Assembly: GCA_016791475.1 (NCBI GenBank)
Contig: JAEUWI010000013.1
Coordinates: forward strand, 11,029-75,028
Reading direction: 5' to 3'
DNA length: 64,000 nt
Source: Candidatus Hydrogenedentota bacterium
GTDB lineage: Bacteria; Hydrogenedentota; Hydrogenedentia; Hydrogenedentales; JAEUWI01
In this document: positions 4,650 through 20,320 of the stretch, in pieces
Numbering within the stretch: the first letter of the stretch is position 1
Layout: the number at the start of each line of letters is the position of its first letter
Made by a program: the position numbers and the translations under genes
The notes under the pieces: generated by a model
The model's database searches: none
What the model was told of the DNA's origin: nothing
Seen by the model: only the letters and a program-made list of their open reading frames with translations

Positions 4650-7600
4650 ATGCGAGGACTTAGGGCTGGAGCATTGACGGGATGTGCTGCTCCTGAGCCG
4701 AGTGGGCGGCGGCCTGCTTTGCGCGGTGTGGTTGCGGGGTGCTGTTCCCTCCTTTGGGTGGTGCTATCCGGCATGGGAACGGCGCAGGCCGAGCCGCTGG
4801 TCGTCGAAGAGGGCGCTGTTGGCGGCGTGCTCGAAGTTCTCGACGCGCCCAACGCCACCGAAGCACCGGTGGTCCACGAAACCGAGGAAGGCTTTATCCG
4901 ATTCCTCGGCGCCCCTCCCGGAGGTCGCTTCATCGCGCGCGAAGACGGCAAAGCCGCCGGCGCGAAAGGTCTCGCCGAAACCTTCCTGCAGGACCATGGC
5001 AAGGCCTTCGGCGTTCTCAGCACCGCCACCACCTTCAAGTCCCGCACCGAACTCGGCCGGAGCACCTCCAGCTTCGTTCGGCTCGACCAGTTCTACGGCG
5101 ACCTCCCCGTCTTCGGCGGCCAGGTGGTCGTCCAGGTCGGCCAGGACAACGGTATCCGCAATATAATGAGCGATATCATGCGCGACACCCGCGCGCTGGA
5201 TGATGGCAGCATCAGCCTCGCGCCCACCGTTTCCAGCGGCCAGGCCCTCGCCAACGCGGCCAAGTATTTCTCCGATCAGACCACGGCCTTCAGCGCGGCC
5301 GATTTTCAGGGCCTGGGCGAAGCCACCCTGCAGATCTTCCGCCCCTCCGTACTCGGACTTGACGGCCAGACCCGCCTCGTCTGGAATCTACGCATCGTGG
5401 CCTCCGGCCCCGAAGCAGTGGACAATGTCGTCCTCGTCGATGCCCACACCGGCCAGGTCGCCTTCTACTACTCCAAGCTTGAGCATGCGCTCGACCGCCG
5501 TATCTTTGATGCCGATGGCTCCTTCATTCTGCCCGCCACGCCCGCGCGCGTCGAGGGCGACGGCGACACCGGAGTTCCCGCCGTCGACGATACCTACGAC
5601 TACCTCGGCGACACCCACGAGTTCTACTTCGGCGAGCACAGCTACGACAGCTTCGACGGCAACGGTTCCCCCATTGTCGCCACCGTCAACGTGCCTTTCC
5701 TGAACGCGTGCTGGGGGTGCTCCCTGGCTCCCGGCAGCCTCGATGAAGGCACCGGCGATATCAACGAAATGCTCTTCGGCACCGGCTTCACCCTGGACGA
5801 CGTGGTGGCCCACGAGCTCACCCACGGCGTGACCCAGTCCACCTCCGACCTGATTTACGCCGGCTACTCCGGCGCCATCAACGAGTCCTTCTCCGACATG
5901 TGGGGCGAGTGGGTCGACATCACCAACAACAGTCTCAATGACACCCCGGCCAACCGTTGGATCGTCGGCGAGGAACTCGACCCCTATATCCTTCTCCTCT
6001 TCGGGCTCGACCCCGTTATTCCCGGTCTTCGGAATATGAAAGACCCCACCATCAAAGGCCACCCGGACCGCCTCGGCAGCCCGCTGCTGGTGAACCCCAA
6101 CAGCTTCTTCGACAACGGCGGCGTCCACATCAACAGCGGTATCGGCAACAAACTCTGCTACCTGCTCACGGATGGCGACACGTTCAACGGATACACGGTC
6201 GAGGGGCTGGGCGTTTCCCTCGCCGCCGACCTCTTCTTCGGCACACAGTTTCTCCTCACCCCGGCCGCGGACTACGACGACCTCTTCCTGGCCCTCGGCG
6301 CCTCCGCCGTGGAGCTCGGCCTGTCCTTCGAGGAGCGTCTCAATATCTCCAACGCGGGATACGCCGTAGAAATTGTTCCCGCCTTCCTCCAGGAAAGCGG
6401 CCTGCGCAACCTTCGCGCACAGTCCACCGAGGACACCTCCGGTAACCCCGTGATCGCCCTCAGTTGGAGCAACCCGGATTCCAGCCTGTTTACCGAAGTG
6501 GTCCTGGTGCGCAACCCCACCCACTTCCCCACGGACCTCAACGACGGCGAAGAATTGGCCCGCGGCACGCTCAGCCAGTATCTTGACCGCGCCGTCGTCG
6601 CCGGGGATACCTACTACTACAGCGTCATTGCCGACCTCTCCAGCGGCCTTCCACAGGTGGTCTCCACCCTCGCAACCGCCGGGGTTGCCGCGAGCGACGC
6701 CCTCACCGAGTCCTTCGGCAGCGACCTCGATTTCACCGGCCGCAACGCCGTTGATCTCTCATTCAGCCAGATCATCTTTACCCCCGTCGGGCGCCCGACC
6801 AACGGCCAGGGCAACTTCAACAACTACGAAGCCACCTACGTCCCCAACGCCTTCGCACTGCCCGTGGCGCGCGAAGACAGCGAGGGCCGCGCCCGCGACA
6901 TCACGACCCCCCAGGACTCCGGCGTCCTCATCGGGCTCGGCGCACACCGGGTACCCTTCTTCGGACAGCCCTACTCCCAGATCTTTGCGGCGTCCAACGG
7001 TTATATCGCCTTCCAGGGCATCGGCCTCGACGATACCCTGAACTACCCGAGTCTCGAATCCCACTTCGCCATTCCGCGCCTGTCCTACTTCTTTGCCGGT
7101 TCGGGCATCTTCGGCGACCGCATCGCGTCCTACGCGGGCGGTTCCATGTGGTATCGACTCCTCGACGACCGCTTCGTACTGACCTACGAAAACGTGCCCC
7201 AGTTCAATTTCCTCTCCCCGAACTCCATCGGCTCCACCAGCACCGTCCAGGTGGAAATGTACTTCAGCGGTCTTATCCGCATCACGTACCTCGACGCCGT
7301 CGCCACCCGCGCAATCATCGGTCTCTCCGATGGCCGAGGCGTCCCCGTCGACCCGGCGGAGCTCTTCCCCGACATTATCAGTGTCGGCGGGCTCACCGAC
7401 TTCACCGAGCTCCCCGCTGAAAACGAACTGCTCAGCATTGACCCCGTTCCCGCGGTCGTCGTCGACGCTGGCGAACTGGCCGTCTTCGATGTCGCCACCT
7501 CGGGGCCGGTCGGCGCCGCGACTCCGGCCCTCCTCTCCGCCACCTGGGACGGTCCCGGCGGCGTGCCCTTCGCGGACAACGGCGACGGCACCGGAAAGTT

Positions 7601-8489
7601 CTACTGGCAGACCGCGGTCGCCGACGAGGGAACCTACCTCGTCCGCGTGATTGCCGCCAACGGCGATCAGACCGCCTATCAGGATATCGTCGTGCAGGTG
7701 GGTTCCGTGGTCCTGCTGCCCCAGGCCGTCAATCTCCAGGTGATCACCGGCGAGCCCGGCGAAGATCCCGGTGAAGACCGCGCCGTGGCCGATGAAAGTT
7801 CGCTCCTCGCGGCCTATGAGTATACCCACGCCCAGCAGACCGACGTGGTCAGCCTCTTCGATGAAGGCAACTCCGTGATCTACTGGTACCGCAACGACCA
7901 GGTCGTGACCAGCCTGACCAACCGCATTCAGGTTTCTCCCCAGGCAACCCGCGGCGGCGACGTCTGGTACTTCGGCGTGGTCCCCGTGACCCTCTCCGGC
8001 ATCTCCGGCAATATCACCTACTCGCCCCGCATGACGATCTCCGGCATCCCCGAGATTGTCTCCGTCACGCCTCCCGTGGGCGGCGTTTCCGGCGGTGAGC
8101 TCGTGCGTATTTCGGGTTCCCGGTTGTCCGCGCCTATCTCCGTCACCTTCGGCGGCGTACCCGCCACCAGTGTGCGGGCCCTCAGCGCGGGCGAGTTGGA
8201 AGTCACCACGCCGCTGCACGCGTCCGGTGCCGTCGACGTGGTGGTGAACACCATCGCGGGCCCCGGCATCCTGCACAACGGCTACACCTACCTCGGCGCC
8301 GATCAGTTGATCCAGGTGACCGATGTGAACGGCGACGGCAAGATCAACGCCCTCGACGTACAGATCGTGGTGAATGCCGTCTTGCGCATCCAGGAAAAAG
8401 CGGTCTCCGTCAACCCCGATGCCAACCGCGACGGCCAGGTGAACGCCTCCGACATCCAGGTGGTGGTAAACAAGGCGTTGCACCGATAG
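4650..8489 (+). CDS. Secreted M4 (thermolysin-family) metalloprotease with TIG and dockerin domains
   Basis: This 1279-aa exported protein has a hydrophobic signal region at about residues 28-48. An FTP/PepSY-like propeptide follows at about 90-260. The catalytic domain has HELTH (His388, Glu389, His392) and the second zinc glutamate in GAINESFSDMW (Glu412). That +24 spacing matches thermolysin, and GGVHINSGIGNK (His493) supplies the catalytic histidine. Downstream are beta-sandwich regions, an IPT/TIG-like domain (about 1125-1215) and a C-terminal dockerin-type domain with two Ca-binding loops (DVNGDGKINALD and DANRDGQVNASD). It probably degrades extracellular protein and may dock to a cohesin partner; no cohesin is visible here. 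A strong terminator follows. Confidence 0.95.
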   Translation: MRGLRAGALTGCAAPEPSGRRPALRGVVAGCCSLLWVVLSGMGTAQAEPLVVEEGAVGGVLEVLDAPNATEAPVVHETEEGFIRFLGAPPGGRFIAREDGKAAGAKGLAETFLQDHGKAFGVLSTATTFKSRTELGRSTSSFVRLDQFYGDLPVFGGQVVVQVGQDNGIRNIMSDIMRDTRALDDGSISLAPTVSSGQALANAAKYFSDQTTAFSAADFQGLGEATLQIFRPSVLGLDGQTRLVWNLRIVASGPEAVDNVVLVDAHTGQVAFYYSKLEHALDRRIFDADGSFILPATPARVEGDGDTGVPAVDDTYDYLGDTHEFYFGEHSYDSFDGNGSPIVATVNVPFLNACWGCSLAPGSLDEGTGDINEMLFGTGFTLDDVVAHELTHGVTQSTSDLIYAGYSGAINESFSDMWGEWVDITNNSLNDTPANRWIVGEELDPYILLLFGLDPVIPGLRNMKDPTIKGHPDRLGSPLLVNPNSFFDNGGVHINSGIGNKLCYLLTDGDTFNGYTVEGLGVSLAADLFFGTQFLLTPAADYDDLFLALGASAVELGLSFEERLNISNAGYAVEIVPAFLQESGLRNLRAQSTEDTSGNPVIALSWSNPDSSLFTEVVLVRNPTHFPTDLNDGEELARGTLSQYLDRAVVAGDTYYYSVIADLSSGLPQVVSTLATAGVAASDALTESFGSDLDFTGRNAVDLSFSQIIFTPVGRPTNGQGNFNNYEATYVPNAFALPVAREDSEGRARDITTPQDSGVLIGLGAHRVPFFGQPYSQIFAASNGYIAFQGIGLDDTLNYPSLESHFAIPRLSYFFAGSGIFGDRIASYAGGSMWYRLLDDRFVLTYENVPQFNFLSPNSIGSTSTVQVEMYFSGLIRITYLDAVATRAIIGLSDGRGVPVDPAELFPDIISVGGLTDFTELPAENELLSIDPVPAVVVDAGELAVFDVATSGPVGAATPALLSATWDGPGGVPFADNGDGTGKFYWQTAVADEGTYLVRVIAANGDQTAYQDIVVQVGSVVLLPQAVNLQVITGEPGEDPGEDRAVADESSLLAAYEYTHAQQTDVVSLFDEGNSVIYWYRNDQVVTSLTNRIQVSPQATRGGDVWYFGVVPVTLSGISGNITYSPRMTISGIPEIVSVTPPVGGVSGGELVRISGSRLSAPISVTFGGVPATSVRALSAGELEVTTPLHASGAVDVVVNTIAGPGILHNGYTYLGADQLIQVTDVNGDGKINALDVQIVVNAVLRIQEKAVSVNPDANRDGQVNASDIQVVVNKALHR

Positions 8490-11221: not shown

Positions 11222-11509
11222 GGCCCGTAATCCTCCCGACCCATAGTGGACCTACCGGGGCCGCCCCGACAGGCAGGCCTGGCGCATCGGTCTCGCGTCA
11301 GGCTCCGGTCGAAGGACCGGATCACTCCAAGTATACCAGAGGTCCAGACCAAATGCAGGGGCCTCCCGCGATCGGCGGAGGCCACCCTGCGACGTTGTTC
11401 CAAGTCCCTGAGACTAAAGCTTTTCCCCGGAACTCGGGTGAACGTCCGATCCCTGTTAATGGCGGGCGCTCACGGCCCGGTAACCAGGAAGGATGGGAGG
11501 CCAGTCAAT
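11222..11509. other. Divergent intergenic region ahead of the virion cluster
   Basis: These 288 bp separate the leftward receiver from the rightward portal gene and must hold promoters for both. I see no convincing -35/-10 pair, repeat or attachment site. A GGGAGG ribosome-binding site at 11495-11500 sets the portal start. Confidence 0.4.
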
Positions 11510-12757
11510 ATGGGTCGATGGAATCAATGGTTTGGAATTCACCGGCGGCGCGTCGAGAAGCCCGCTCCGCAAGCACCAGCGGGTCTCTTTAAGACCGTCA
11601 GCCGATCGGCGGATCCGGGTGGATTGGGTGCGCACCTCGGCGGCTATCTCGGCTTGCCCGGCGAAACCCCCTTCGCCATGTTGCAAGTCTATCGATTTCT
11701 CCGCGACGCCATCCCCGATATTTCCGATGCGATCTGGACCTGGAAGCGCCTTTGCCAGACCGGATGGGACGTGGACTATCTTCACACCAGTTCGGAGGCC
11801 GCGCGCACCCGCGCGCAGCGACTCATCGCGGAACTCGACGCCCGCGTAAACAGCGGCGATCGCGGCATGGAGGGCCTGCTCGACATCTTCTACACCTCCC
11901 TCTTCACCTATGGTGCCGCCGCCGTGGAGATTGTACTCTCCCAGAGCCGCGAGTCCGTGTTCGACGTCGTACCCGTCGACGTCTGGACCCTCCGCTTCAC
12001 CCGCGAAGGCGGAAGGCTTCAGGCATGGCAAGTCCTCGACGGGAAAGCCGTCAAGCTGCCCATGGACCGTTTCATCTATGTGGGCATGGACCGCGAAGGC
12101 ACCAACCCCTATGGCCGCTCCATGCTGCGCTCCATTCCCTTCGTCGTTAAGATTCAGCAGCGCCTGATCGAGGATATGGCCAAGGCCACCCACAACGCGG
12201 GCTGGAGCAAGCTCCACGTGCAGTATGCCGGTGAAGACCGCGCGCGCGGCGAAAGCGTTGAAGCCTTCCAGGAACGCATGCGCGCCAACCTGAATTCCCT
12301 CCGCGACAAGCTCGCGGGCATCGAAGCCGACCAGAATCTCGTCACCTACGACAACGTGAAGATTTCCATGCTGCGCGGCGATCAGCATGCCCAGGTTTTC
12401 TATGACAACCACAAGGCCATCGAAGAACAGGTCATCACCGGCATGCATCTCATGCCCATCCTGCTGGGGCGCAACTACGGCACCACCGAAACCTACGGCA
12501 CCGCCCAGTTCGAGATCATCAACAGGCAGGTCGAAGGCGTCAATCGCAGCGTCCAGAAACTTCTCGAGCGACTCTACAACTTCGAGCTCGCCCTCATGTG
12601 GGGCGAAGCCACCGCCAAAGTCAACATGCGCACCAACCGCACCGTGGACGTACTCAAAGAAGCCCAGGCCCGCGAAAAGGAAATCGGCAACGTGCTCCGC
12701 TTGAAAGAAGCAGGCCTGCTGGACGACGAGCAAGTAAGAGCGGCGTTGAGCAGGTAA
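11510..12757 (+). CDS. Phage portal-like protein (DUF935/Mu gp29-type)
   Basis: This 415-aa protein begins MGRWNQWFGIHRRR. It has a portal-type core: an alpha-helical stem start (MLQVYRFLRDAIPDISDAIW), a DVVPVDVWTLRF strand, the FIYVGMDREGTNPYGRSML stretch and a long helical C-terminus. Portals form the dodecameric ring through which DNA enters the capsid. ATG 11510 is chosen for its GGGAGG site; the frame stays open to 11246. It is the first gene of the cluster, and no terminase gene is recognised in the 11 kb upstream. Its stop codon abuts a perfect 34-bp inverted-repeat arm. Confidence 0.8.
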   Translation: MGRWNQWFGIHRRRVEKPAPQAPAGLFKTVSRSADPGGLGAHLGGYLGLPGETPFAMLQVYRFLRDAIPDISDAIWTWKRLCQTGWDVDYLHTSSEAARTRAQRLIAELDARVNSGDRGMEGLLDIFYTSLFTYGAAAVEIVLSQSRESVFDVVPVDVWTLRFTREGGRLQAWQVLDGKAVKLPMDRFIYVGMDREGTNPYGRSMLRSIPFVVKIQQRLIEDMAKATHNAGWSKLHVQYAGEDRARGESVEAFQERMRANLNSLRDKLAGIEADQNLVTYDNVKISMLRGDQHAQVFYDNHKAIEEQVITGMHLMPILLGRNYGTTETYGTAQFEIINRQVEGVNRSVQKLLERLYNFELALMWGEATAKVNMRTNRTVDVLKEAQAREKEIGNVLRLKEAGLLDDEQVRAALSR

Positions 12758-13015
12758 TCCGCCGAAGGCGGAACAGTTGACAGTTGACAGCTGCGCGCAC
12801 CTCGCTAGTTCTCTCCGTCTATATTTTCGTTTACCTCCGATTCCATACGACCCATACGACCCATACGACCCATACGACCCATACGACCCATAAGACCCAT
12901 AAGACCCATAAGACCCATCCGTCCCACAAGACCCACAACCCATCGCCACCAACCTGGAGCACCCCCATGTCCTCTTCCCCGCTGTCAACTGTCAACTGTT
13001 CCGCCTTCGGCGGAT
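12757..13015. repeat. Composite repeat: 34-bp inverted arms around a 9-bp tandem array
   Basis: Positions 12757-12790 and 12982-13015 are perfect 34-bp inverted copies. Each contains a TCCGCC...GGCGGA hairpin and 7-bp CAGTTGA units. Between them, 12847-12936 holds about ten nonamers: five ACGACCCAT, three AAGACCCAT and two variants. The left arm begins on the last base of the portal stop codon. The right arm lies inside the annotated start of the protease gene. A third half-copy of the arm is at 27829-27855. Confidence 0.95.
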
Positions 13016-13716
13016 CAACTGCCCTCGAGCCCTTCATCTTCCGCCAGGCGGGCCGTCTAGTCGCCATCCGCGCGGCGCAGGCCGTCGAAAACTCCGACGA
13101 CCGCGACGCCGCCGTCAACCGCTATGCGCTCCGCGCCCTCGCGCCGGAAGAATACGCGGCTTTCACCCTCGATCTCTGCAACAACCAGATCGACCGCCAC
13201 TTCAGCCGCTTCCCCGAAGAAGAGCTGGAGCGCATCAATGAACTCGTGCCGGGACGACCCCTCATGGAGCGCCACGACCTCCGCGGCACCCTCCCGCGCG
13301 GGCGCTTCTTCCGCTCCTCGTTGCATCGTGAGGGCGAGGTCGTTTCCGTGCGCCCCGAGGTCTACGTGCTCCGCACCGCGGACAATCAGGACTTCATTCT
13401 GAACATCGAAGGCGGCGTCTACCGCGAGACTTCCATCGGCTTTTCTTTCCGCATGCCCGAGTGCTCGGTCTGCGGCAAAGACTTGCGCACCTGCGATCAC
13501 GTGCCCGGTAGAACCTACGGCGACCAAGCCTGTCACTTCATCATGCACGGTGTGCTCGAAGTCGCCGAAGGCTCCGTCGTGTCCTCCGGTTCCCAGGGCA
13601 CCGGCTTCGTCCGCGAAGGCCGCGATGCCCCGCTGGTCGAAGCGCTCGAAGCGGCGCGGGAAAGCTTTCACCAGCCCATCGAACTCGAAAGCAAAAAGCT
13701 TTGGGCGCAAGAGTAG
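12967..13716 (+). CDS. Prohead protease-like protein (S78-type) with Cys-rich insertion
   Basis: This protein is 249 aa from the ATG at 12967 (CTGGAGC upstream). The core DLCNNQIDRHFSRF ... GRPLMERHDL and YRETSIGFSF matches capsid maturation proteases. His103 and Ser156 sit in the positions of the catalytic His and Ser. CSVCGKDLRTCDH at 166-178 is a Cys/His cluster seen in some phage proteases. It would cleave scaffold or capsid during head assembly. Residues 6-17 are encoded by an inverted-repeat arm, so the native N-terminus may have been altered. The frame upstream to 12784 reads through the tandem repeats and is unlikely to be translated. Confidence 0.75.
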   Translation: MSSSPLSTVNCSAFGGSTALEPFIFRQAGRLVAIRAAQAVENSDDRDAAVNRYALRALAPEEYAAFTLDLCNNQIDRHFSRFPEEELERINELVPGRPLMERHDLRGTLPRGRFFRSSLHREGEVVSVRPEVYVLRTADNQDFILNIEGGVYRETSIGFSFRMPECSVCGKDLRTCDHVPGRTYGDQACHFIMHGVLEVAEGSVVSSGSQGTGFVREGRDAPLVEALEAARESFHQPIELESKKLWAQE

Positions 13717-14036: not shown

Positions 14037-14747
14037 ATGCTGTATCGATTGACGAGTGAAACCATCGTGGAGAATCCCCTGCCGCCGGGAGAAGACGCGC
14101 GGCGCTTCGTGCTTCATCGACACCGCGACGGCGAAGGGGCCCACCTCGATCTGCGCCTGGAGCAGGAGGGTTACCTGATGGGCTTTCGCGTCGATGGCGT
14201 CACCCTCGGCCCCGAAAGCTGGGCCACCGTGAAAGCGCCCCACCCGCTCCACTGGCTCACGCAAAACGGCGAGGCCGTGCGCGAAGACGGCGGCACCTAT
14301 TACTGGGAGCGGGGCGATGCTTCCAGCGGTGGCGTCCTCGTGCTCAGCGGCCAGCGCAAGTCGTTGCGCGTAACCGTAGAGCCCGTGGGTGGCGCAAGCG
14401 CCGGGGCCCTTGGGGCACTGCGGGCTGCGGCGGAAAAACTGAACGTGGCCCTGGGGGAACTGGCGGGCCTCGCCGAAGACGGGCGCGCCGCGCGGGATCG
14501 CGCCATCGCGCGCTACTGCGGTCTCGGCCGCGAGCTTGACGGCGGCAGCTTTGACGATGCCTGGTGGCGCGCCATGCTCGCGGGCCAGCGACTGCACGTG
14601 ATCCAGCAGCACCTCCACGGACTGGAAGTGCGCTTCGACAAAAAATATCCGCCCTTGCCCGTTTCAGTGCCGGTGGCGCTCGAAGACGAAGGCGAACTCG
14701 CCGGGGTGGGCGGCGCCGAGCGCGCTATGGGGATTCTCTGGGGCTGA
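14037..14747 (+). CDS. LigD 3'-phosphoesterase (PE)-domain-like protein within the virion cluster
   Basis: This protein is 236 aa. Residues 23-73 reproduce the PE-domain core of bacterial NHEJ ligase D: RRFVLHRH (His29), AHLDLRLE (His36, Asp38, Arg40) and APHPLHWL (His69). They match in order and approximate spacing the catalytic His, HxDxR and His of LigD-PE. A GTYYWERGD...GVLVLSGQRK section resembles the rest of that beta-barrel. LigD-PE removes 3'-phosphates and ribonucleotides from DNA ends. The C-terminal 120 residues are helical and unassigned. The gene is 17 bp after the XhlA-like gene and 140 bp before the decoration gene. Fold and residues are seen; activity and purpose in a capsid operon are inference. 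Confidence 0.65.
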   Translation: MLYRLTSETIVENPLPPGEDARRFVLHRHRDGEGAHLDLRLEQEGYLMGFRVDGVTLGPESWATVKAPHPLHWLTQNGEAVREDGGTYYWERGDASSGGVLVLSGQRKSLRVTVEPVGGASAGALGALRAAAEKLNVALGELAGLAEDGRAARDRAIARYCGLGRELDGGSFDDAWWRAMLAGQRLHVIQQHLHGLEVRFDKKYPPLPVSVPVALEDEGELAGVGGAERAMGILWG

Positions 14748-14887: not shown

Positions 14888-15268
14888 ATGGCATTTGGCG
14901 ATACCGGCGGAGCCGTAACCGAACTCATCATCACCTGTCGCACCCCCGCGGTCGGCGGCGTGGCGATCGCAAAGGGCGACGCGGTGAAACTCACGGGGGC
15001 CTACACCATCACCAACGCGACCGACGCCGAAGACGCGGTCTTCGGCCAGGCGATGCAGGCGGCCACAGCGAACGACGTGGGCATCCCCATCAAGGTGCGG
15101 GGCATCTGCATCTTCAAGTACACCGGCACCGCGCCCACCGTGGACGGCGTCAAAGGCGTCACCGCTTCGGCCACCGACGGCTCCGTGAAAACGCCCGCCT
15201 CGGGCAACGGCAAAGGCATCAACGTGAAGGTGGACGCCACCGCGACGCAGGTCCACGTGCTGCTCTAG
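14888..15268 (+). CDS. Capsid decoration protein-like (DUF2190-type)
   Basis: This 126-aa, Ala/Thr/Gly-rich, beta-predicted protein (VAIAKGDAVKLTGAYTITNA, DAVFGQAMQAATANDVGIPI) follows the pattern of DUF2190/head-decoration proteins. It is encoded immediately before the major capsid gene, as is usual. Trimers of such proteins stabilise capsid surfaces. A strong AAAGGAGG lies 8-9 bp before the ATG. The assignment is supported by position as much as by sequence. Confidence 0.65.
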   Translation: MAFGDTGGAVTELIITCRTPAVGGVAIAKGDAVKLTGAYTITNATDAEDAVFGQAMQAATANDVGIPIKVRGICIFKYTGTAPTVDGVKGVTASATDGSVKTPASGNGKGINVKVDATATQVHVLL

Positions 15269-15325: not shown

Positions 15326-16372
15326 ATGGCCTATCAGGACACCCAGATGAAAGAGCAGATCCGTTTCCTCGCCCAGGCGCCCGACGCGCTGCGCCAGGTG
15401 CGGGGTCAGGGGCTCTACGAAACCCTCAACAACCTGGGGCTCACGCACCAGCATTATTTCCGCGCGCTCGACACCAACGTGCAGGACTACTGCGCGCAGG
15501 AGTTCGGCATTGACGTCAATCGGATCACGGTGGACCGCTTCTTTCAGTCCGACCCGAACGCGAAGTGGCTCTTCCCCGATATCGTGCGCGAAGCGGTGAT
15601 GACGGGCCTGCGCCGCAAGCCGGTGTACCCCGATCTCATCATGCACGACGAGCACATCGAAGGCACGGCCTACGACGTGCCCTATGTCACCGAAAGCGCG
15701 GAGAATGAAGAACTCCGCAGCGTGGCGGAGGGCGCGGTAATCCCGGAATCGTCGCTCACCTACGGCGATCGCATCGTGAAGCTCGACAAGAAAGGCCGGG
15801 GCGTCCTTGCGTCCTACGAGGCGGTGCGCCGCATGAGCGTGGACATGCTCCGCGTGCATCTCCAGCGCATCGGCGAGCGCCTGGGCCGCAGCCTCGACGC
15901 GCGCCTGGCCCACGTGCTGGCCAATGGCGACTCATCCGGCTCGGGCACGGCGCCCGTGTCCATGAACACGGCCACCGCCGACACGTGGACCTATGGCGAT
16001 CTGATCGCCCTCTACATGAAGCTGAGCCAGGAGCATTACTTCACGCCGACCCACGTGCTCGCGGACACCGCCACGGCCCAGGCGATCCTGAAGTTCGCGG
16101 AGATTGCCGACAGCAATCTCTTCGACTTCGCCAAGACCGGCAAGCTGCCCACGCCCCTCGGTGTGCGCCTCGTGCCCCTGGCGGATCAGCCCGCGAACAA
16201 GATCACCATGCTCGACGCGGGCTTCGCCGTGCAGAAGCTCACCGAACAGGATCTCCTCGTGGAGTCAGACAAGCTTACCAGCCAGCAGTGGGACCGCACC
16301 TATCTCACCGTGGTGACGGACTTCGCCATCACCTATGAGAAGGCCCGCGTGGTGATGACCAGCGACTGGTAA
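15326..16372 (+). CDS. Major capsid protein-like
   Basis: This 348-aa protein is the best candidate for the capsid subunit. It has a helical N-terminus, a central segment with YDVPYVTESAENEELRSVAEGAVIPESSL (an E-loop/P-domain-like stretch), a long helix with RRMSVDMLRVHLQRIGERLG, and an A-domain-like C-terminus ending VVTDFAITYEKARVVM. Order after a decoration protein and before a connector supports an HK97-fold shell protein. The N-terminal 100 residues may act as a scaffolding region cleaved by the upstream protease. No phage lineage can be named. Confidence 0.75.
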   Translation: MAYQDTQMKEQIRFLAQAPDALRQVRGQGLYETLNNLGLTHQHYFRALDTNVQDYCAQEFGIDVNRITVDRFFQSDPNAKWLFPDIVREAVMTGLRRKPVYPDLIMHDEHIEGTAYDVPYVTESAENEELRSVAEGAVIPESSLTYGDRIVKLDKKGRGVLASYEAVRRMSVDMLRVHLQRIGERLGRSLDARLAHVLANGDSSGSGTAPVSMNTATADTWTYGDLIALYMKLSQEHYFTPTHVLADTATAQAILKFAEIADSNLFDFAKTGKLPTPLGVRLVPLADQPANKITMLDAGFAVQKLTEQDLLVESDKLTSQQWDRTYLTVVTDFAITYEKARVVMTSDW

Positions 16373-16467: not shown

Positions 16468-16881
16468 ATGGCAAATTTCACAACCGAAGCAAAGGTGCGG
16501 CTTGCCGCACAAATCGACGACACGGCCATCGCCAGTACGGCCCTGATCGAAGCGAGCATCACCGAAGCCCACGAAGCGGTTCTGAGCGATTTGGACGATA
16601 CCATCGATCCGGAGGGTCCGCCCGACGCCCTTGTGCAGGGCGAGACCCTTCTTGCCGTATCAATCCTCCTGCGCGCCCTCGCTTCGCGCGATGCGGTGGA
16701 GCAGGTCGAGCTGCAAATCGGAGGCCAGCGCATCGGCGCGGGGCAACGCTTCGCATCGCTGATGACGGTGGCGCGGCAATTCGAGAAAGAAGGAGCCCGT
16801 ACTTTGGGCCCGTTCGCCGGGAAGCCCGCTGTCCTGCCGCCGGCCGACCTCACGGCAACCACGCCCGTGCTCGGCGTTTAG
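16468..16881 (+). CDS. Head-tail connector/adaptor-like protein
   Basis: This 137-aa, mostly helical protein begins MANFTTEAKVRLAAQIDD and contains ALIEASITEAHEAVLSDLDD and ETLLAVSILLRALASRDAVEQ. Size, helical content and position directly after the capsid gene fit the gp6/DUF1320-type adaptors that extend the portal ring. ATG 16468 has AAGGAG upstream; the frame runs back through the repeat to 16396. The name is by position and composition. Confidence 0.5.
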   Translation: MANFTTEAKVRLAAQIDDTAIASTALIEASITEAHEAVLSDLDDTIDPEGPPDALVQGETLLAVSILLRALASRDAVEQVELQIGGQRIGAGQRFASLMTVARQFEKEGARTLGPFAGKPAVLPPADLTATTPVLGV

Positions 16882-16912: not shown

Positions 16913-17596
16913 ATGGCGATCAGCGTAGGAAGCCAGGTCTTCGACGCCGCGACGACCGTGGCGCGGGAGGAATACGAGATAGTCGGCGGAAAGCAGTCTC
17001 GGGCCATACGGATCACCGGGGTGGTGCGCGGTAGCTCCAGTCTGGCGGAGCTGATCGAGACCCTGGACTCGATAGCCCGGTCCGCCTCGGAAACGGTGCC
17101 AGCCGAGGTATCTCTGCGCGAAGGCCGACGGCTCTTCGCGCGACGGGAGGCGTTTTCCCGGGAGCTGAGTCTCCGTTCACGCGTGGGCTGCTTCGTGCTC
17201 GATCTCCGCGCGGACGATGCGTGGGAGGAGTCCGCGGTCCTCCACGAGTCATCTTGGGAAATCGGCTTCTCGGGCGCCACGGTCGATCTATCCAACAGCG
17301 GCAACGTCGCGACCATGCCGGTGGTCACGTTGACGGCGGAAAGTGATCTGGAGCTGCCGACGCTTGGCGATGGCACGCGAGCGCTGACCTATCAGGGCAC
17401 GGTGCCCGGCGGCGCGAGCCTCCTGTTCGACGCCGCAACACGCCGCGTCCTGCTGGACGGTACGGACGTGACGCCCTACACCACCGGGGACTTTCCCCAG
17501 TTGGCGCCTGGAAACAACACGCTGGAATACACGGGCGATCCGAGTGGCGGCCACTTCGCCAGTGCGGTCGTTGCCTTTCGTGATCGGTGGTGGTGA
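16913..17596 (+). CDS. Distal-tail (Dit)-like protein
   Basis: This protein is 227 aa. The N-terminal half is predicted beta/alpha (YEIVGGKQSRAIRITGVVRG). The C-terminal section ends with a phage distal-tail galectin-like motif, LAPGNNTLEYTGDPSGGHFA followed by FRDRWW, typical of Dit proteins of siphophages. Dit forms the hexameric hub at the tail tip. The hub/nuclease gene begins three bases after the stop. No tail-tube or tape-measure gene lies between the connector and Dit, which is unusual for a long-tailed phage. Confidence 0.65.
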   Translation: MAISVGSQVFDAATTVAREEYEIVGGKQSRAIRITGVVRGSSSLAELIETLDSIARSASETVPAEVSLREGRRLFARREAFSRELSLRSRVGCFVLDLRADDAWEESAVLHESSWEIGFSGATVDLSNSGNVATMPVVTLTAESDLELPTLGDGTRALTYQGTVPGGASLLFDAATRRVLLDGTDVTPYTTGDFPQLAPGNNTLEYTGDPSGGHFASAVVAFRDRWW

Positions 17597-17598
17597 CG

Positions 17599-19338
17599 AT
17601 GCGGTACAGCGTAGAGATTTTCGATCGCGCCGGGCTGCGCGTGGGTAGTTTTGACCAAGTCCCGCTCCTCGAAATCGAGCGCAACGGGCCGGACGGCGTG
17701 GACCGTATCGAAGGGCTGCTGCCCCTTTCCCTCGACCGCTTCGGCGTGGGCTACACGGTTCAGGTTTCACTGGATGGCGTGCTTGGGGTTTCGGCACGGG
17801 TCGTGGAGTCGCGCCCGGCCTGGGGCGACACCCGGCGGCTCATCCTGGATCGGTATGTGGATTTTCAGGAATTGCTGGCCTTCGTGGCCGAGCGGGATCG
17901 AAGCGAGGAAAACCGGCGCGTCGCCCGGAGTTACAAGAATCAGCGCGTGGACGTCATGGTGCGCGACGTGCTCAACAGCACACTGGGTCCAGTGCGCTAT
18001 TCGGTGGCCCACGAGGGTTACCCCGATGGCGCGGAGCGTGAATATGGCAAGTTCGCCGCGCGCCGTGCCTGGACCGATGCGCTGGAGGTCGGCGGGATCA
18101 CCACGGGTCAGTGGGTGGATGCCGGCCGCATCGATCTGACCGGTGCGGAAGCTAAGGATGGCGATACCATCTCCGGGCTGGTGGTCGACGGCGTGGCCTG
18201 GCCCGATCTCCGCCTGATGATGATCGACTGTGAAGAAACGAGCCTGAACAGTCACGCGATAAAGCGCCACCCGGAGATCGCGGCGTGGACCTCGGACCAG
18301 TACGACCGGAGCGCCTACAAGCGCCGTGCCGACGATGCGAAGGCGCGCCTGCAGAACCTGCTGGACACGCGAGGCATCGACTATATCGAACTCAATCCCC
18401 ATCAGGATGCGAGCGGGGCCTTCGACGACCGCGTGGACGCTTACGGGCGCTACCTCGGGCTGGTTTATGGCGACGGACAGTGCTTCAACGCCGCGATGGT
18501 GGAAGAGGGCCATGCGGACGTGTATCTCTATGACGACGGCCGCTACCACGTTCCGGAAATGGCGCTGAAAGACTTCTACGCCTATGTCGGCCCCCATCAG
18601 GAATCGGTGGAGCCCTGCTCCACACTCGTGGGCGCCTTTGAGGCGCGGGGCGGCGCGCTCGAAGTATTGACGGCCCTCGCGGCGCTCGGTGGCGGTTATG
18701 TTTTTCGCCTGGATACGTTGGGCGTGGTCCACTTCCGGCGCGGCGATCGTGTGGACCAGGTGGTCACCCTCGATCCCGTGCGCACCGGCGTGGAGCTGGG
18801 TCATGATTTGCGCGGGCTGGTCAACCTCCTGCGCATTCAGGGCGACCCCATGCATGGCGGCGTGGATGGATACCACGCTGAGGACGACAGCATCGATGCG
18901 TTCGGTACGCATTTTCGTTACTTCGCTTACTTCGCTCTGAGCCAGGCGGATGACGCGGAACGACTGGCCGATGGGCTGCTGCGCGATCTCGCCTGGCCGG
19001 CGCGCGCGGGCAGGGCCGTCTTCCACCGGGGTGTGGCCGCGATTGATGTGGGTGCCTTGCTGGAATTTCGCGGTCCGGCCCTTGTGGAGCGGGACGCGCC
19101 CCTGACCGGTGTGTGGGGTGAAGCGCTGGGCGAGCGCCTCGTGGGCCGGGTGAACCGCGTGGTGCACCGGATTGCCGGAGAAAGCGTGGAGACCCGTCTC
19201 GATTTAACCTCACCCTTCCGCTCGGTGGCGAACCCGCTGAGCTTTATCACCCGCAGCCAGGACAGCCTATCGGCCTTCTTTCAGTTTCGCCTGGACGACG
19301 CGTCGATTGGCATGGACACGGGATTTCATCTCGACTAG
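17599..19338 (+). CDS. Tail hub protein with embedded staphylococcal-nuclease domain
   Basis: This protein is 579 aa from ATG 17599 (a GTG at 17587 is also possible). Residues 1-180 and about 345-579 look like a gp27/XkdQ-type tail hub or baseplate protein. Residues 185-315 form a thermonuclease (SNase) domain with the conserved set present: DGDTI (Asp189), RLMMIDCEE (Arg205, Asp210, Glu213) and DAYGRYLGLVY (Arg284), then NAAMVEEGHADVY. These match SNase Asp21, Arg35, Asp40, Glu43 and Arg87. SNases cut DNA and RNA with Ca2+. A nuclease at the tail tip could act on target-cell nucleic acid; that role is inferred. Confidence 0.82.
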   Translation: MRYSVEIFDRAGLRVGSFDQVPLLEIERNGPDGVDRIEGLLPLSLDRFGVGYTVQVSLDGVLGVSARVVESRPAWGDTRRLILDRYVDFQELLAFVAERDRSEENRRVARSYKNQRVDVMVRDVLNSTLGPVRYSVAHEGYPDGAEREYGKFAARRAWTDALEVGGITTGQWVDAGRIDLTGAEAKDGDTISGLVVDGVAWPDLRLMMIDCEETSLNSHAIKRHPEIAAWTSDQYDRSAYKRRADDAKARLQNLLDTRGIDYIELNPHQDASGAFDDRVDAYGRYLGLVYGDGQCFNAAMVEEGHADVYLYDDGRYHVPEMALKDFYAYVGPHQESVEPCSTLVGAFEARGGALEVLTALAALGGGYVFRLDTLGVVHFRRGDRVDQVVTLDPVRTGVELGHDLRGLVNLLRIQGDPMHGGVDGYHAEDDSIDAFGTHFRYFAYFALSQADDAERLADGLLRDLAWPARAGRAVFHRGVAAIDVGALLEFRGPALVERDAPLTGVWGEALGERLVGRVNRVVHRIAGESVETRLDLTSPFRSVANPLSFITRSQDSLSAFFQFRLDDASIGMDTGFHLD

Positions 19339-19352
19339 CAAAGGAGTGGCAC

Positions 19353-19874
19353 ATGGCCATCAAAGGGCTTTCCTACAACAAGACGATCTGGGCTTTCGAA
19401 GAACGCCCGGTTTCCAGCGCGAAGCTCAATCAGTGGGACGACCGTATCGAAGGCGCGCTCGAGGCGGCCTTTCTTTTGCTTAACCATGCATGGGGCGGGG
19501 GGGATGGTGTGCTGCACGGCCTGGGCAGCGGGGAACTCGCTGTGACTGCGACCTCGCCGCTGAGCCTTCGGGTGAGCGTGGGCACGGGCTACGCATTTAT
19601 CGACAGTAACCTTTTTCGATTGAAGGTAACGACCCAAACGCCCGATGTCGTGCCGCCCCTGAGCGACGGGCGTATCGACCTCGTGCAGGCCAATCTGGCC
19701 ACGTGGAGCATTTCGGTCAAAACCGGCGCCGAAGCGGCCAGCCCCTTGGCTCCGACGGCCGACGACGGGGCGATCCCCCTGGCCCGGCTGATGCTGCGTC
19801 CGGGAATGACCTCGATCAAGGACACCGACGATGCCGTGAACGGCTACGTGGTGGATGTGCGGAGTTTTCTCTGA
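19353..19874 (+). CDS. Baseplate/tail-appendage protein
   Basis: This protein is 173 aa. A helical N-terminus (SAKLNQWDDRIEGALEAAFLLLN) leads to a beta-rich part (GVLHGLGSGELAVTATSPLSLRVSVGTGYAFIDSNLFRL). This resembles N-terminal domains of upper baseplate or tail-fibre proteins that attach appendages to the tail tip. It starts 15 bp after the hub gene with AAAGGAG upstream. No receptor-binding domain is obvious, so another fibre subunit may be encoded elsewhere or the structure is reduced. Confidence 0.55.
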   Translation: MAIKGLSYNKTIWAFEERPVSSAKLNQWDDRIEGALEAAFLLLNHAWGGGDGVLHGLGSGELAVTATSPLSLRVSVGTGYAFIDSNLFRLKVTTQTPDVVPPLSDGRIDLVQANLATWSISVKTGAEAASPLAPTADDGAIPLARLMLRPGMTSIKDTDDAVNGYVVDVRSFL

Positions 19875-19972: not shown

Positions 19973-20320
19973 ATGGATATCGATCTGGGCATCACGCTGT
20001 TGGGCAGTGCGGTGGGCGCGGTGTGGGCGGGCTTCAAGTCGAGCGACGAGTATCAGCGCGTCCAGCGCCTGCGCTTTCGCAAGGCCCTGCTCGCGCTGGA
20101 AAGCGGCGTGGAGCGGACCTACCAGGCCTACGTGAAAGCGATCAAGGCCGGGCGCGCCGATGGCCGCCTGACGGAAGACGAAAAGGCGCGGGCACGATCC
20201 CTGGCGCGGACCCGGGCCATCGCCCTGGCGAAGGAGGCCGGGGTCGACTTGCTGCGCACCATCGGCGAAGACTACGTGGACGTGTGGATCGCGAAACTGG
20301 TGCAGAAGCGCAAGGGGTAG
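19973..20320 (+). CDS. Small cluster-terminal protein, holin-like
   Basis: This protein is 115 aa. A hydrophobic N-terminal segment (ITLLGSAVGAVWAGF) is followed by a charged helical region (RKALLALESGVERTYQAYVKA) and EAGVDLLRTIGEDYVDVWIAKLV. One membrane segment plus a basic amphipathic tail and the last position in a virion operon suggest a holin or membrane-anchoring protein. No endolysin gene is visible. AAGGAGG precedes the ATG. The function is a guess from layout. Confidence 0.4.
   Translation: MDIDLGITLLGSAVGAVWAGFKSSDEYQRVQRLRFRKALLALESGVERTYQAYVKAIKAGRADGRLTEDEKARARSLARTRAIALAKEAGVDLLRTIGEDYVDVWIAKLVQKRKG

Follow-up and report, generated by a model that had tools for sequence, protein, structure and literature searches.

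A staphylococcal nuclease domain inserted in the tail hub of a probable gene-transfer-agent-like element of Hydrogenedentota

Introduction

The locus described here raises the question of why a phage-type tail hub should carry a staphylococcal nuclease (SNase) domain, and what kind of particle such a hub would belong to. The window, a stretch of 64,000 nucleotides from a Candidatus Hydrogenedentota bacterium, had been described in an earlier note as encoding a tail hub with an embedded SNase domain, placed at the tail tip as an antibacterial effector or to clear nucleic acids. Known SNases need millimolar Ca2+ and so act outside the cytoplasm, and they leave 3'-phosphate ends on the nucleic acid they cut. 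Gene transfer agents (GTAs), which are one candidate for the particle, are hard to tell from dead prophages by sequence, and to our knowledge very few of them are known outside Alphaproteobacteria.

Results

The SNase domain lies within the tail-hub fold

The tail-hub gene (17599..19338, forward strand, as are all the cassette features given below) encodes a protein of 579 amino acids. Its frame is intact to position 19338 from the ATG at 17599, and a GTG at 17587 is another possible start. In an AlphaFold2 model based on a 29-sequence alignment (pLDDT 88, pTM 0.87), residues 1 to about 165 and about 335 to 545 form a gp27-type hub fold that aligns over about 300 residues with Z scores of 14-21. 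In VIA-align, the Z scores were 20.8 for the HFTV1 tail chain 9h4p_BD, 15.6 for Mu gp44, and 14.0 for T4 gp27, and the hub is also structurally near the T6SS VgrG and contractile-injection (eCIS) hubs. The SNase domain is inserted between helix 143-155 and strand 343-352 of the model and comprises hub residues 169-334 (about 166 residues; 18103..18600). This segment matches SNase folds with Z of about 13 and rmsd of 2.3-2.6 in Foldseek and VIA-align, for example 1syb with a Z of 13.5 and an rmsd of 2.6 over 128 residues at 23% identity (VIA-align).

The sequence searches point the same way. Pfam PF00565 matched the hub at 29.7 bits, above its curated cut-off of 21 (E 9.4e-7), and PHROG gave an 'endonuclease' match at 3e-7. 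A profile of 29 hubs searched against the PDB found staphylococcal nuclease (E 1.7e-7), with the DGDT motif and the positions of Arg35, Asp40, Glu43, and Arg87 aligned. The SNase domain in the hub, as first suggested in the earlier note, is real and no chance match. The note had placed it at 18150-18545, where the domain indeed lies, although the structure gives it a slightly wider extent. The five catalytic residues which it had named are present at exactly its numbering when ATG 17599 is taken as the start, namely Asp189 (18163-18165), Arg205 (18211-18213), Asp210 (18226-18228), Glu213 (18235-18237), and Arg284 (18448-18450), equivalent to Asp21, Arg35, Asp40, Glu43, and Arg87 of the nuclease. 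Asp187 is likewise among the key residues of the domain. Of the two objections raised at the outset, a missing OB-fold is countered by the SNase fold predicted in the model, and a separate SNase gene joined to the hub by a sequencing error or frameshift is ruled out by single-frame, full-length fusions in about 30 independent Hydrogenedentota genomes. Hub matches were found in 33 of the 60 Hydrogenedentota genomes searched, most of them at 40-71% identity across almost the full length and nearly all in one open frame. A pattern scan of genome contigs, with patterns that reach close relatives only, found the hub in Hydrogenedentota alone.

Catalytic residues are conserved in most hubs

Among 30 hubs, Asp189 is kept in 27, Arg205 in 29, Asp210 in 28, Glu213 in 29, and Arg284 in all 30. 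No part of the hub is better conserved across Hydrogenedentota than the SNase segment, which has a mean column identity of 0.76 against 0.62 and 0.60 elsewhere in the protein. Its dN/dS was lower than that of the rest of the hub in 10 of 10 pairs. Judged from sequence, the selection on the catalytic residues argues that the hub SNase would be an active enzyme. Alternatively, the insert may be structural only, a plug or spacer like the pb3 plug of T5, in which nuclease activity is vestigial. Inserts without enzymatic function occur in the hubs of T5 and lambda (PMC10721106), and one hub, that of genome G040 (L028:158-1900), has retained the SNase domain with four of its catalytic residues gone (D189R, R205G, D210G, and E213S), while the catalytic residues are partly changed in the hubs of G026 and G029. 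However, such residues have been kept in 27-30 of 30 hubs while the surrounding hub diverged, and we regard a purely structural insert as unlikely.

The hub gene belongs to a conserved head-tail-lysis cassette

The hub is encoded in a cassette of ten or eleven genes whose order is kept from family to family: portal, protease, 3'-phosphoesterase-like protein, cement, capsid, g7, distal tail protein (Dit), hub, g9, M15 endolysin, and holin-like g10. Every cassette gene is under purifying selection, with dN/dS of about 0.04-0.4. The portal protein is of the Mu type (11246..12757; Pfam Portal_Mu, 2.1e-7; phrog_3753, 1.8e-42), and its homology with the relatives begins at about residue 89. The next gene (13024..13716) matched phrog_16951 (1.4e-35), a family without an assigned function, and its product is probably a prohead protease, as judged from gene position and motifs. 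Its open reading frame runs from 12784 and is conserved from residue 81; homology begins only after a tandem repeat coding THTTHTTHT at the 5' end (12784-13023), so that the true start probably lies downstream of the annotated one. Six genomes have, in or beside the cassette and mostly between the protease and phosphoesterase genes, a gene for a secreted-looking protein of 270-620 amino acids (APRYLEELRIGGGYG...; L044:12101-13780, L047:7435-9108, L043:848-2716, L042:8031-9251, L038:3316-4323, and L053:5784-6587), which is possibly a fibre or cargo.

The third gene (14037..14747) encodes a protein like the 3'-phosphoesterase of LigD. Its profile matched PDB 3p43 (E 7e-6), and His29, His36, Asp38, and Arg40 are invariant, with the first three found in 18 of 18 sequences and aligned with the Mn-binding His42, His48, and Asp50 of 3p43. 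The Pfam family PF13298 matched the window copy at 15.2 bits, under the cut-off of 31.1 (E 0.025), and 10 of the 18 relatives at E up to 0.1. The profile match and the invariant residues bear out the suggestion of a second nucleic-acid enzyme in the cluster.

A capsid cement or decoration protein (14888..15268; phrog_4588, 2.3e-7) and the major capsid protein (15326..16372; Pfam Phage_capsid_4, 1.3e-13; phrog_3922, 3.9e-53) follow. The g7 protein (16471..16881) had no significant family match and is a probable head-tail connector by gene order and conservation. The Dit gene (16913..17596; Pfam SPP1_Dit, PF22768, 2e-9; phrog_33, 4e-12) adjoins the hub gene, as in gp27-type hubs. Downstream of the hub, g9 (19353..19874) is a candidate hub partner or baseplate protein; it matched the baseplate family phrog_20556 at 0.0019 and is present or absent together with the hub, and its structure model is of low confidence (pLDDT 63). 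The g10 protein (19973..20320) is holin-like: among the relatives, 9 of 15 matched the holin family phrog_13712 (best 1e-3), and the assignment is weak for the copy in the window. The M15-like gene of the relatives was recognised by PHROG, and Pfam gave nothing reliable for it; an M15 endolysin was not matched in the window genome, in a search that had no positive control. Neither a tail tube nor a tape measure was found. The tail may thus be of very small length, or its genes may lie at another site.

The cassette is widespread and fixed in the chromosome

The capsid gene was found in 52 of 68 Hydrogenedentota genomes and in 34 of the 38 good ones, nearly always as a single copy. The genomes of family f7 and most of those of f11 have kept the capsid genes and lack the hub, g9, and other tail genes, and their endolysin gene follows the capsid gene. 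Four f11 genomes keep Dit, most of them also g7, without the hub and g9. On the core-gene tree, two changes suffice for the distribution of the hub. The core function can thus do without the SNase, as indicated by the genomes which keep the capsid and have lost the hub. The phosphoesterase is retained in the hub-less genomes.

The cassette is flanked by cellular genes, and in family f1 the same chromosomal neighbours recur. Its G+C content is that of its surroundings, no integrase was seen, and replication, integrase, and repressor genes are absent from the cassette itself. The closest phages have only distant similarity in capsid and portal. Phage hubs with SNase insertions, which the earlier note had proposed to search for, were not found, as searches of 50,697 phage records and of IMG/VR gave no match for either the hub or its SNase segment; by the same result we rejected an ordinary phage or recent prophage as the identity of the element. 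Upstream of the cassette, a large secreted metalloprotease of the thermolysin type with a dockerin-like C-terminus is encoded at 4650-8489, and it is kept in the f1 relatives.

A dedicated terminase lies at a second locus

Matches to Terminase_6N were sporadic (7 of 40 genomes), from which a cassette particle without a terminase had been considered. This idea was refuted by phrog_2 and then by searching with the G001 protein, which led to a conserved large terminase in 57 of 68 genomes and 37 of the 38 good ones, single-copy in most. The terminase gene adjoins the cassette in G001 and otherwise lies at a second locus, on another contig or kilobases away. In G000, the conserved copy is on contig C9, and the phrog_2 match on C1 is a different gene. 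A TerS-like gene for a small helical protein and a gene for a lipoprotein with a 3D-type domain lie near the terminase, both named from sequence pattern and position. The Cys-rich 3D-type lipoprotein ('TASGTKA..GTIAADT..YPFGT') was seen near the terminase in 13 genomes (L172-L191, e.g. L177:9434-9976). Three genomes (G017, G021, and G060) have extra, divergent terminases of 36-44% identity, which perhaps belong to related true prophages of Hydrogenedentota.

Terminase distances follow those of gyrB (rho 0.84). The cassette and terminase trees have 10 of 14 supported splits identical and none conflicting, and the agreement of the cassette with gyrB is moderate (rho 0.41; 7 splits in common and 3 conflicting). 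The cassette and terminase are vertically inherited across Hydrogenedentota and have been handed down in this way over a very long period.

Discussion

A GTA-like reading of the element

The setting of the cassette fits a GTA-like element and not a lytic phage. We compared the element with the published definition of GTAs (PMC9662315). The element encodes proteins of caudoviricete descent (portal, major capsid protein, Dit, cement, terminase, and endolysin families). It is fully endogenized at several loci, with the capsid cassette and the terminase apart, and it has been inherited vertically and has diversified with its host, with the agreement between cassette and gyrB only moderate. The further features in this definition (PMC9662315) are the packaging of mostly random host DNA, an element that is too large or otherwise unable to be packaged whole, and DNA delivery to other cells, which depend on experiments. 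Since three of the six features are present and the other three are experimental, we call the element GTA-like and not a GTA. The lysis gene set and the presence of ComEC in 39 of 40 genomes are in favour of this reading; ComEC is required in the recipients of RcGTA (PMC10883770).

A decaying prophage, present in the window genome by chance, would explain why replication, integrase, and repressor genes are missing and why the hub, tail block, and endolysin were lost in some lineages. Such a remnant is very improbable, however, for an element that is phylum-wide and mostly single-copy, with all of its genes under purifying selection, with agreeing trees for two separate loci, and with a hub that has no relatives in the phage or IMG/VR collections. 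We consider that the cassette, which is known from its genes alone, probably encodes a domesticated, phage-derived, GTA-like particle with a SNase-bearing tail hub, most likely a previously undescribed system of this kind.

Possible roles of the hub nuclease

In the proposed mechanism, the host chromosome has two loci, one with the genes for capsid, portal, short tail, and lysis and the other with the dedicated terminase. The terminase would fill the capsid with host DNA, the holin and endolysin would free the particles, and the hub would dock on a recipient. There, the hub SNase may cut nucleic acid at the interface of particle and recipient, outside the cytoplasm, which is the role we favour for it. 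This cut could either trim the DNA under delivery or clear extracellular DNA that blocks the surface.

Any 3'-phosphate ends left by the SNase could be converted back to 3'-hydroxyl ends by the phosphoesterase encoded in the cassette. LigD phosphoesterases carry out this conversion (PMC8656161), and the match between the product of one enzyme and the substrate of the other means that the two could act in series. We therefore considered a phylum-wide GTA with a cut-and-heal pair, in which the hub SNase cleaves and the phosphoesterase of the particle restores the 3'-hydroxyl for uptake and recombination. As the phosphoesterase is kept in genomes without the hub, the coupling is not obligatory and is a possibility only; we hold this full scheme to be doubtful.

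Clearing of extracellular DNA or biofilm matrix by a tail-associated nuclease, which would give the particle access to the recipient surface, seems to us a tentative but plausible role. In its favour, the hub sits exposed at the tail tip, SNases depend on Ca2+ and usually work outside the cell, and phage tail-tip hydrolases commonly clear barriers. In alphaproteobacteria, GTA genes co-evolve with biofilm genes (PMC10883770). Clearing would be counterproductive, however, were the packaged DNA to come into contact with the SNase as well, and the present data do not set it apart from processing of the delivered DNA.

The particle may instead kill, as a tailocin or PBSX-like particle with the SNase as an antibacterial effector at the tail tip. 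Among T6SS effectors, nuclease domains carried by spike proteins are frequent, and the structural nearness of the hub to VgrG and eCIS hubs would suit this role. PBSX itself is GTA-like and packages DNA but kills rather than transfers (PMC12946183). However, toxin tips are usually variable, whereas the SNase varies less over the phylum than any other segment of the hub and is no polymorphic toxin tip, and neither the cassette nor its conserved neighbours show a candidate immunity gene. The domain is also inserted within the hub fold and not at a detachable C-terminus, and the element has kept a matching terminase, a portal, and a protease. The effector role that the earlier note had put forward has thus become less likely, and we judge a killing particle improbable.

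Comparison with known systems

A phylum-wide, mostly single-copy element at two loci in an uncultured phylum would greatly widen the list of GTAs, and its hub nuclease raises the question of what happens to the DNA, or to the nucleic acid of the recipient, at delivery. Our literature search found no GTA report for Hydrogenedentota, and for a SNase-related domain on a phage hub it found one precedent only, the BtI1 hub of a phage-like region of Bacillus thuringiensis israelensis, in which the domain was noted in 2007 without explanation (PMC2147016). In BtI1, compared here by its description, it is the N-terminal domain of a gp147-type hub from one chromosome, with relatives that carry peptidoglycan hydrolase domains (PMC2147016), whereas the SNase of Hydrogenedentota lies inside the gp27 fold and is conserved over the phylum. 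What appears to be new is this conservation, together with the placing of the domain inside the gp27 fold and its GTA-like context.

With the stand-alone nucleases of PF00565, the staphylococcal (micrococcal) nuclease family, the hub shares the SNase fold, the DGDT motif, and the equivalents of Arg35, Asp40, Glu43, and Arg87; it differs from them in its place within a tail hub and in the greater length of the stretch from Glu213 to Arg284. The hub fold itself is common to T4 gp27, Mu gp44, T5 pb3, the HFTV1 hub, and the VgrG N-terminus, and the position of the hub next to Dit is shared as well. Where T5 and lambda have plug or FNIII domains inserted in their hubs (PMC10721106), the insert here is a nuclease. 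The phosphoesterase-like protein has the catalytic His/His/Asp of the LigD domain PF13298 (PMC8656161) but is a stand-alone protein encoded in a capsid operon.

Among the GTAs, RcGTA of Rhodobacter has a full tail. FpGTA of Faecalibacterium has two operons and probably a short tail (PMC12946183), the two operons being comparable to the two loci of Hydrogenedentota, and in BhGTA/VSH-1 of Brachyspira, too, the terminase is encoded away from the main cluster (PMC9662315). In BhGTA, FpGTA, and RcGTA, as in Hydrogenedentota, phage-derived capsid and lysis genes are fixed in the genome and vertically inherited (PMC9662315, PMC12946183). The Hydrogenedentota element, likened to them by its gene content, differs in its phylum, in the SNase of its hub, and in the phosphoesterase of its head operon.
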